This document shows positions 13,211-17,022 of a stretch of 64,000 bases of DNA, in pieces. How positions within the stretch are numbered: position 1 is the first letter of the stretch; each line of letters opens with the position of its first letter. Both the position numbers and the translations under genes were made by a program. This DNA comes from Pelagibacterales bacterium SAG-MED37 (GTDB taxonomy: Bacteria > Pseudomonadota > Alphaproteobacteria > Pelagibacterales > Pelagibacteraceae). The stretch lies in assembly GCA_014653605.1 (NCBI GenBank), contig JACWEG010000004.1, positions 1 through 64,000 of the forward strand. Direction: 5' to 3'. The notes beneath the pieces are model-generated. The model was given only the letters and a program-made list of their open reading frames with translations, did not search any database and was not told the DNA's origin.

Positions 13211-13219
13211 AATAAGGCT
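13196..13219 (-). terminator. Intrinsic terminator of the Ogt-like operon
   Basis: On the minus strand AGCCTTATTTTAGGGCT followed by TTTTTT forms a small hairpin (AGCC/GGCT, extendable by a wobble) plus T-run directly after the stop codon of the Ogt-like gene. Confidence 0.5.
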
Positions 13220-13487
13220 AAATCGCTACCTTTTCTGATCTAAGTAATTTGAGCTTTTGTTTAATTCCACCTCTCCCAGAGTAGCCTCCAAGATCTCCAT
13301 CAGATCTAATCACTCTATGACAGGGTATTTTTGGAGCATATGGGTTTTTAGCACAAGCATTAGCAACAGCACGAGCTGATTTAGGCCTTTTTATACCAAT
13401 AGCCACCTGTTTATATGTTTTTACCTTACCTTTTGGTATAGTTTTAAGGTATTTCCAAACTTTTAATTGAAATTTTGTTCCTTTCAC
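13218..13487 (-). CDS. Short MGMT-family (Ogt-type) methylated-DNA-cysteine methyltransferase domain protein
   Basis: An 89-aa protein that is only the C-terminal alkyl-transfer domain: FQLKVWKYLKTIPKGKVKTYKQVA, then RAVANACAKNP, the acceptor-Cys motif PCHRVIRSDG and GGYSGRGG. The Cys is kept, so it is not an alkyltransferase-like (ATL) protein lacking the acceptor residue. The N-terminal domain of Ogt (about 170 aa in E. coli) is missing. The GTG start is the only option because a TAA lies four codons upstream. It follows a 58-aa membrane protein gene by 6 bp and ends in a small terminator. Confidence 0.85.
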   Translation of the reverse strand: MKGTKFQLKVWKYLKTIPKGKVKTYKQVAIGIKRPKSARAVANACAKNPYAPKIPCHRVIRSDGDLGGYSGRGGIKQKLKLLRSEKVAI

Positions 13488-13689: not shown

Positions 13690-13718
13690 TTGACATTAAA
13701 AATCACCTATAATATAGT
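13690..13718 (+). promoter_or_regulatory. Promoter of the tyrosine recombinase gene
   Basis: A consensus TTGACA (13690-13695) is followed after exactly 17 bases by TATAGT (13713-13718). Initiation would fall near 13725, inside the inverted repeat that precedes the recombinase ATG. TATAAT at 13708 is also present but gives a 12-base spacer. Confidence 0.6.
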
Positions 13719-13744
13719 TTCCGATAATTAATGGTTATCGGAAA
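13718..13744. repeat. Perfect 10-bp inverted repeat with 7-bp spacer upstream of the recombinase
   Basis: TTTCCGATAA (13718-13727), spacer TTAATGG, then TTATCGGAAA (13735-13744), ending 5 bp before the recombinase ATG and overlapping the likely transcription start. The geometry (inverted arms around a 6-8 bp centre) is that of a tyrosine-recombinase core site, but it equally fits a repressor operator or an mRNA hairpin hiding the start. Confidence 0.85.
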
Positions 13745-13749
13745 TATAT

Positions 13750-14655
13750 ATGAATAATTTAATAACTGATGTAAAAAGCCTAGAGTTAGAAACTTTAAAA
13801 AATTTAAAGAATTCAAAAGCTAATAATACTCTTAGAGCTTATCAATCTGATTTCAGGGACTTTTCAGCATTCTGTGCAAAAAGTGGTTTTTCTTCAATGC
13901 CATCACAGCCAAAAATAATAGCGCTTTACATTACTCATCTCTCGAAATCATCAAAATTTAGTACATTAAAAAGGAGAATAGCATCTATAAGCGTCCTTCA
14001 TAAACTAAAAGGGCATTATCTAGATACTAAACACCCAATTATAATGGAAAATTTACATGGTATTAAAAGAACTTTAGGATCAAGACAAAAAACTAAAAAA
14101 CCTATATTAATCAATGATTTAAAATTAATAATTAAAGCAATAGGTGAAGAAAAAATTAGAGATAAAGCTTTAATTTTGATTGGATTTTCAGGTGGTTTTA
14201 GAAGATCTGAGCTAGTAAATATTGATTATGATGACGTTGAATTTGTTACAGAAGGTGTAAAAATTTTAGTTAAAAAATCTAAGACAGATCAATCAGGAGA
14301 AGGAAGTGTTAAGGCAATCCCCTACTTTGACAATCAAGAATTTTGTCCTGTTGTAGCTCTAAAGAATTATGTTGGCAAAAAATTTACAAATACTGATGAG
14401 GGTAAAATTTTCGATATTTCAGATAAATCTGTGGCTCTTATTATTAAAAGATATGCAGAAAAAGCGGGTTTAGACTCATCAAAATACGCAGGACATAGTT
14501 TAAGATCAGGTTTTGCAACTACTGCTGCTGAGTTTGGCGCTGAAGAAAGAAATATCATGGCTATGACAGGTCATAAAACTACTCAAATGGTGAGAAGATA
14601 TATTCAAGAAGCAAATCTATTTAAAAATAATGCTTTAAATAAGATAAAAATATAA
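13750..14655 (+). CDS. Tyrosine recombinase (phage integrase/Xer superfamily)
   Basis: A 301-aa DNA strand-exchange enzyme. The N-terminal SAM-like core-binding domain (residues ~10-95, NNTLRAYQSDFRDFSAFC) is followed by the catalytic domain. All catalytic residues are visible: Arg in GFSGGFRRSEL, Lys in KKSKTDQSGEG, HSLRSGF (HxxR), TGHKTTQMVRRY with His and the Tyr nucleophile. It differs from ordinary XerC/XerD by its position beside accessory genes and by a dedicated promoter and inverted repeat. There is no adjacent phage structural gene. It is convergent with the 701-aa glycosyltransferase. Confidence 0.9.
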   Translation: MNNLITDVKSLELETLKNLKNSKANNTLRAYQSDFRDFSAFCAKSGFSSMPSQPKIIALYITHLSKSSKFSTLKRRIASISVLHKLKGHYLDTKHPIIMENLHGIKRTLGSRQKTKKPILINDLKLIIKAIGEEKIRDKALILIGFSGGFRRSELVNIDYDDVEFVTEGVKILVKKSKTDQSGEGSVKAIPYFDNQEFCPVVALKNYVGKKFTNTDEGKIFDISDKSVALIIKRYAEKAGLDSSKYAGHSLRSGFATTAAEFGAEERNIMAMTGHKTTQMVRRYIQEANLFKNNALNKIKI

Positions 14656-14665
14656 AATAGGATAA

Positions 14666-16773: not shown

Positions 16774-17022
16774 TTAACTGATACTTAATAAATATCTTCT
16801 CTTTTTTAAATCTTTTTTTAGTTTATATTCAAATGACATAGCTAATCTTTTATCATAAAATCTTTTTTTATAGATAATTTTCCATTTGTACCCACGTGTG
16901 GATTTAGCACCTATCCCAGAATTATGTTTTTTAAGTCTTAGTTTTAAATTATTAGTGTATCCAACGTATGTTTTTGTTATTTTACTATTTACACCCTTGA
17001 GCATATAAACATAAAACATCAT
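16774..17022 (-). CDS. GIY-YIG nuclease-domain protein (UPF0213/YhbQ-like)
   Basis: An 82-aa single-domain protein with the GIY-YIG pattern: FYVYMLKG (GIY position), KTYVGYTNNLKLRLKKH (YVG plus conserved Arg), and the catalytic-Glu region AMSFEYKLKKD. Small proteins of this type are proposed DNA-repair or structure-specific nucleases, but function is not proven. Two ATGs occur in tandem (MMFYVY); either may be used. It starts 5 bp downstream of the tRNA-Glu 3' end and is probably on the same transcript. Confidence 0.85.
   Translation of the reverse strand: MMFYVYMLKGVNSKITKTYVGYTNNLKLRLKKHNSGIGAKSTRGYKWKIIYKKRFYDKRLAMSFEYKLKKDLKKRRYLLSIS

Follow-up and report, generated by a model that had tools for sequence, protein, structure and literature searches.

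The palindrome directly upstream of the recombinase gene in this DNA is read here as the dif-equivalent, that is, the chromosome dimer resolution site, of the Pelagibacteraceae, with the adjoining gene encoding the only recombinase that acts on it; this pair, of plasmid type, would have replaced XerC, XerD and the canonical dif. We put the probability of this reading at about 0.88. Its direct support lies in the anatomy of the site, its conservation, terminus position and single copy, in the absence of XerCD and the presence of the FtsK gamma domain, and in the kinship of the enzyme to plasmid recombinases that have the same site. If it is correct, SAR11 did not lose its dif/Xer system: within one order, a plasmid-type module with one enzyme took its place. 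Such a natural replacement of XerCD would bear on the domestication of mobile-element recombinases for chromosome segregation, which has been argued both ways (PMC8138268, PMC8987985). The sequence-only reading of this DNA had proposed a recombinase gene with a core-like site at its start; the position at the replication terminus, the replacement of XerCD/dif, the plasmid type of the recombinase and the phages with the same site go beyond it.

The recombinase gene and its palindrome

The features of the window, meaning the whole stretch of 64,000 nucleotides that was analysed, are as follows.

13690 to 13718, forward strand: promoter, from its sequence, with TTGACA at 13690-13695, 17 nucleotides of spacer, and TATAGT at 13713-13718
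13718 to 13727, forward strand: predicted left recombinase-binding arm, TTTCCGATAA, of the dif-like site; its GATAA is invariant in all SAR11 loci examined
13728 to 13734, forward strand: 7-bp centre, TTAATGG, the presumed crossover region; TTAATNG is nearly fixed in SAR11
13735 to 13744, forward strand: predicted right recombinase-binding arm, TTATCGGAAA; its TTATC is invariant in all SAR11 loci examined
13750 to 14655, forward strand: gene for a single tyrosine recombinase of Xer type, 301 aa (PF00589, 69 bits), with orthologues throughout the family

The sequence TTTCCGATAA-TTAATGG-TTATCGGAAA at 13718-13744 is a perfect 10-bp inverted repeat with a 7-bp centre, lying, as had been stated from the sequence, between a near-consensus promoter and the ATG of the recombinase gene, from which it is separated by 5 bp. 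The last base of the -10 element (13718) is also the first base of the left arm, and the site overlaps the transcription start, as had been proposed. Because the site is in this way built into the promoter, the recombinase bound there would probably limit its own expression, and autorepression is plausible from the sequence: among 145 distinct orthologues, 144 carry TTGAC at 31-34 bp ahead of GATAA.

The exact site occurs once in the window, where shuffled sequences give an expectation of 0, and it is single in the assembly of 977,632 bases even when up to 3 mismatches are allowed; there is one such short, AT-rich, non-coding palindromic site per chromosome. The bare palindrome is little surprising because the DNA is so AT-rich (28% GC): the window holds seven perfect 10-bp inverted repeats with centres of 5-9 bp against 2.1 expected, and the palindrome itself is the only one of these with at least 3 G/C per arm, against 0.23 expected. 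From the sequence alone it is mildly unusual and constitutes weak evidence, and the case is carried by conservation and position.

The recombinase is catalytically complete, as had been noted earlier, with R151, K178, H249, R252, H275 and Y284 all present. Its closest named relatives, at 95% identity, are from single-cell genomes of Pelagibacteraceae, which places the window in SAR11. A Foldseek search with the predicted structure gave Cre and XerA as the best matches, which we take as supporting evidence since the model is of moderate quality (pLDDT 76.8, pTM 0.56). In strain HTCC1062, the gene SAR11_1019, annotated as 'xerD integrase/recombinase' and likely to be the orthologue of the gene in the window, is reported to be expressed and to be induced together with recA (PMC5069961; see also PMC3090418).

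Two small ORFs on the reverse strand accompany the gene and site. That at 13218-13487 encodes a stand-alone MGMT-type DNA-binding domain of 88 aa, alkyltransferase-like, and that at 16774-17022 encodes a single-domain GIY-YIG protein.

Conservation of the gene and site in SAR11

SAR11 are the most abundant bacteria of the ocean. Orthologues of the recombinase are present in most genomes of the genus and in all 11 closed Pelagibacteraceae genomes, from several genera; a hit is absent in 5 of 60 Pelagibacteraceae genomes that are at least 95% complete, none of the five being closed. The repeat stands next to these orthologues, with GATAA-N7-TTATC directly upstream of the gene at 110 of 110 loci in the first sets and at 41 of 41 in a later set that overlaps them in part. 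When the loci of 145 distinct proteins are compared, the core GATAATTAATNGTTATC hardly varies, unlike the DNA around it; the GATAA and TTATC arms formed part of the search pattern in this comparison, and no locus failed the pattern. Two genomes, G028 and G184, have the gene and show no match to the strict core pattern. The gene and site are kept as a unit over several genera, the recombinases are monophyletic, and the gene, with its full catalytic set, is retained vertically in the lineage.

Outside the core, the arms fall into two classes, A (TTCC-core-GGAA) and B (TACTAAY-core-RATAGTA). The class follows the recombinase tree, changing 4 times on it compared with 44 times when the labels are shuffled, and class B recombinases show many sequence differences, one of them an inserted stretch close to residue 221. 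The co-variation of repeat and enzyme that the sequence-only reading had proposed to look for is found, and the prediction that the repeat is the core site of this recombinase is well supported, by its presence beside the orthologues and by arm classes that follow the enzyme.

The DNA directly upstream of the promoter varies between SAR11 lineages (loci L002-L031) and the gene and site are constant, implying a fluid neighbourhood on that side. In genome G131, a GATAATTAATTGTTATC core at C8:7874-7890, some 7 kb away from a recombinase fragment that is truncated at the contig start, may represent a second copy.

Position at the replication terminus

The site lies at the replication terminus, where the GC skew switches. 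In the complete, single-contig genome G012 (1.343 Mb) it is at 617,610, the cumulative GC-skew maximum being at 615,773 and the minimum at 1,290,840, a separation of 1.8 kb from the maximum and of half a genome from the minimum. For G130, of which the first 400 kb were covered, site and maximum are 1 kb apart, and the window has the same flip, with its cumulative maximum at 14,660. The skew is positive before the site and negative after it in 19 of 20 other genomes, taking up to 20 kb on each side, a pattern shown by 17.5% of positions in G012. Skew was computed over 1.340 of the 1.343 Mb of one genome, over the initial 400 kb of another and over 20 local stretches. In all 11 closed genomes the distance from the site to dnaA is 0.42-0.49 of the chromosome, which places the site opposite dnaA. 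Because the genomes are related, the nominal probability, 2e-9, overstates independence. A search of G012 for a KOPS-like guide word yielded no convincing candidate; the words with the strongest skew are rich in A, and many of them switch at about 612-620 kb.

XerC, XerD, dif and FtsK in the order

In a survey of 2009, Carnoy and Roten reported that Pelagibacter ubique possesses no dif/Xer system, and took this free-living organism as evidence that genome streamlining can discard dif/Xer (PMC2731167). In the sister family of the same order there are two strong Xer genes (244-322 bits), and the exact canonical dif TATAATATATATTATGTAAA is found in four of the nine genomes tested, with close variants in two others. 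Among 12 Pelagibacteraceae genomes there is no strong XerC or XerD, and the recombinase type found in the window is the only consistent Xer-like gene, scoring 65-82 bits against the XerD model, for which the cut-off is 329.6; other integrases occur only sporadically. The canonical dif pattern has no match shared among the Pelagibacteraceae genomes. FtsK with its gamma domain is found in 40 of 41 genomes.

The Pelagibacteraceae arrangement is therefore not canonical XerCD/dif: there is one recombinase rather than two, and a 7-bp centre with symmetric arms rather than a 28-bp site with a 6-bp centre and half-sites of XerC and XerD type. The 7-bp centre, unlike the 6-bp centres of proteobacterial dif sites (PMC2731167), counts against the dif reading, as do the lack of a clear KOPS-like guide word, the genomes G028 and G184, the five nearly complete genomes without a hit, and the outside relatives in which no such site was seen (see below).

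It is worth considering whether a plasmid-derived module stays at the terminus for some reason other than dimer resolution, for example decatenation or the resolution of incoming plasmids. No dimer-resolution phenotype is known, and the 2009 survey argued that free-living bacteria with streamlined genomes might do without the system (PMC2731167). We nevertheless find this very improbable, because the recombinase is the only one linked to a site, XerCD is replaced in the Pelagibacteraceae only, the site is always at the terminus, and the FtsK gamma domain is kept.

On the dimer-resolution reading, two recombinase subunits would bind the two arms. In a chromosome dimer, both copies of the site would be brought together at the division septum, presumably under the control of FtsK, whose gamma domain is retained, and cleavage and strand exchange across the 7-bp centre would then yield two monomers.

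Kinship with plasmid recombinases

The nearest relatives of the recombinase outside SAR11 are plasmid-borne 'site-specific integrases' with 43-45% identity, and relatives are found on 2,098 PLSDB records; sporadic relatives in other Alphaproteobacteria have about 40% identity. Identity to the XerC and XerD of the sister family is 19-23%. In a maximum-likelihood tree the SAR11 proteins form one clade (96/84), beside or within the plasmid and accessory group and far from XerC/D. TnpS/TnpT of Tn4651 was considered as the closest relative and ruled out, with 27% identity and no palindrome.

Many of the plasmid relatives have TTCCGATAA-N6/7-TTATCGGAA upstream, with common arms, a variable centre and 39-269 bp to the gene. 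Class A arms, scored as at least 13 of 18 positions, lie upstream of 16 of 35 plasmid and alphaproteobacterial relatives, compared with 6% of background windows, and the scanned stretches of the other 19 have no such site. The Niallia megaplasmid pMEGANia matches all 18 arm positions around a centre of 7 bp, and the site on a Mesobacillus plasmid is class B-like. The recombinases of these two (L321, L330) are sisters, and their class A-like and class B-like sites echo the two SAR11 classes, which makes them a suitable pair for mapping arm specificity. Several plasmid copies are near ParA or toxin-antitoxin genes and, given also that the plasmids are circular, these relatives would act in plasmid multimer resolution. 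The SAR11 enzyme is thus closer to the TTCCGATAA-type plasmid recombinases than to chromosomal Xer proteins and shares their upstream arms, which is why we consider that SAR11 probably replaced XerCD with a module of this type; the transfer would have run from plasmid to SAR11.

The combination of shared arms with a varying centre and a varying distance to the gene is characteristic of a recombination core and not of an operator, and a centre that is nearly fixed in SAR11 and variable in the plasmid relatives is as expected of a crossover region. An operator at which the recombinase or another protein regulates the gene, with recombination taking place elsewhere or never, would suit a palindrome placed right at the transcription start with a promoter spacing fixed in nearly all orthologues. 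It is very improbable that this is the whole role of the palindrome, which also marks the GC-skew terminus, as an operator need not do, and which phages carry without the gene (see below).

In four alphaproteobacterial loci (L297:240-1394, L298:260-1363, L301:269-1372, L302:236-1321) the recombinase follows an ORF of some 365 aa that is similar in all four (QKAIRRG...EDVGVGD-like), and the palindrome sits between the two genes. This ORF was not seen in SAR11.

Copies of the site in phages

The pattern TTCCGATAA-N7-TTATCGGAA is found in at least 120 stretches of IMG/VR viral contigs, compared with 1 for a scrambled palindrome of the same composition. Of 75 viral loci examined, a recombinase of the family is missing from 62 and present in 11, where the site is on its 5' side; the 29 loci with the SAR11-type core are all without one. 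About half of these loci share a terminase large subunit (TerL), and where inspected the site is in the intergenic region between terS and terL. By TerL the closest isolates are Pelagibacter phages, HTVC106P (85%) followed by the relatives of HTVC010P. On three viral contigs, a 37-base class B site is identical, letter for letter, to that of a SAR11 genome.

Among 50,697 phage records searched at E of at most 0.1, only the Pelagibacter phages HTVC100P, HTVC035P and HTVC106P match, all in non-coding DNA. The site of HTVC100P, ATTATTACTAACGATAA-TTAAAG-TTATCAATAGCAATGA, has host-like arms and a 6-bp centre. HTVC106P, which infects HTCC7211, carries a class A-like site, and HTCC7211 is a class B host if G209 is HTCC7211, in which case the matching of phage and host sites is not strict. 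In the part of HTVC010P that was examined the match is no more than weak, and no mention of dif was found in open-access papers that name this phage (subscription journals were outside the scope). No close viral copy of the recombinase was found in IMG/VR, and phage records give only matches of 23-29%.

Sites between terS and terL, with no recombinase gene nearby, were seen in pelagiphage-like contigs (L332-L435, for example L358:1787 and L337:4156) and in the cultured HTVC106P and HTVC100P (L476:1419; L480:901-936); the site of HTVC035P is known by search only.

The sequence-only reading had suggested either an attachment or a resolution site, and of these the resolution site is well supported and the attachment site is not supported. 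An attachment site (attB or attL) of an integrated or decayed mobile element could draw on the closest relatives outside SAR11 being on plasmids and other accessory DNA, and on the phages that carry the same site. We judge it extremely improbable: the site is a single copy with no element boundary, there are no phage genes in the neighbourhood (as had been said from the sequence), and the same gene and site are kept family-wide as a monophyletic clade over several genera. Furthermore, the TerL of the site-bearing phages is found in only 1 of 399 SAR11 genomes, and the flanks fetched there contain no site; no integrated copy of a phage was found at it. The element boundaries, second copy and nearby phage genes of a phage integrase with its att sites were likewise not found, and an integrase/att or phase-variation site was ruled out, there being a single copy and no partner site.

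For the phages, the candidate uses of the site are integration with the host enzyme, circularisation and multimer resolution, the first of which would parallel the IMEX elements such as LME-1 of Legionella (PMC9765430). The odds are about even for the combined proposal that SAR11 dropped XerCD/dif for a captured plasmid resolution module, used for chromosome dimer resolution, and that pelagiphages lacking a recombinase have, between their terminase genes, mimics of the host site in order to use the host enzyme in one of these three ways. If so, dif hijacking would be a strategy of short-tailed phages whose hosts are the most abundant bacteria in the ocean. An arm sequence common to plasmids of several phyla and to pelagiphages provides an easy marker of a widespread family of recombinases and sites, and allows phage use of the site to be tested directly.

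Comparison with known systems

XerS/difSL resembles the SAR11 system in having one recombinase, with its gene directly beside a near-palindromic site at the terminus (PMC5357621). It differs in that difSL is 31 bp long with an 11-bp centre and imperfect arms, and the XerS profile NF003462 gives the SAR11 recombinase 58.5 bits against a cut-off of 267, placing it outside the XerS family. Helicobacter and Campylobacter likewise have a single enzyme in difH/XerH, generally with linkage between gene and site and with a terminus location (PMC2731167); the differences are imperfect arms and a centre of 6-10 bp (PMC5357621); XerH was not among the phmmer matches in the PDB, and its structure 5jk0 is a distant fold match, at rank 49. 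The dif/XerL system of the Legionellales, which homology searches had missed and which came to light through a mobile element carrying a dif mimic, also has one recombinase and long, uninterrupted inverted-repeat arms (PMC9765430). In L. pneumophila, dif and xerL are more than 400 kb apart, unlike the SAR11 site, which adjoins its gene (PMC9765430); this comparison is one of architecture only.

Cre/loxP of the plasmid-prophage P1 similarly uses a single recombinase and a symmetric site, and separates dimers of a circular replicon, as is predicted for SAR11; Cre has 16-17% identity to the SAR11 recombinase in structural alignments. The loxP site has an 8-bp centre and 13-bp arms. The TnpS/TnpT resolvase of Tn4651 (pWW0) also combines a tyrosine recombinase with a site next to the gene, falls within the wider tree, and differs in that TnpS needs TnpT and its intergenic region is without a SAR11-type palindrome. 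The closest group comprises the plasmid 'integrases' of Alicyclobacillus, Niallia, Protochlamydia and others, many of which share the upstream site and which differ in being on plasmids rather than at a chromosome terminus; no description of their function was found in the literature searched.

The open-access literature has no published report of a SAR11 dif site or of the site string itself, subscription journals being outside this scope. A dif/Xer system with a single recombinase is already known in kind from XerS, XerH, XerA and XerL. As far as the searchable literature shows, what is new here is its SAR11 lineage, its plasmid kinship, its symmetric site with a 7-bp centre, and the copies of that site in phages.
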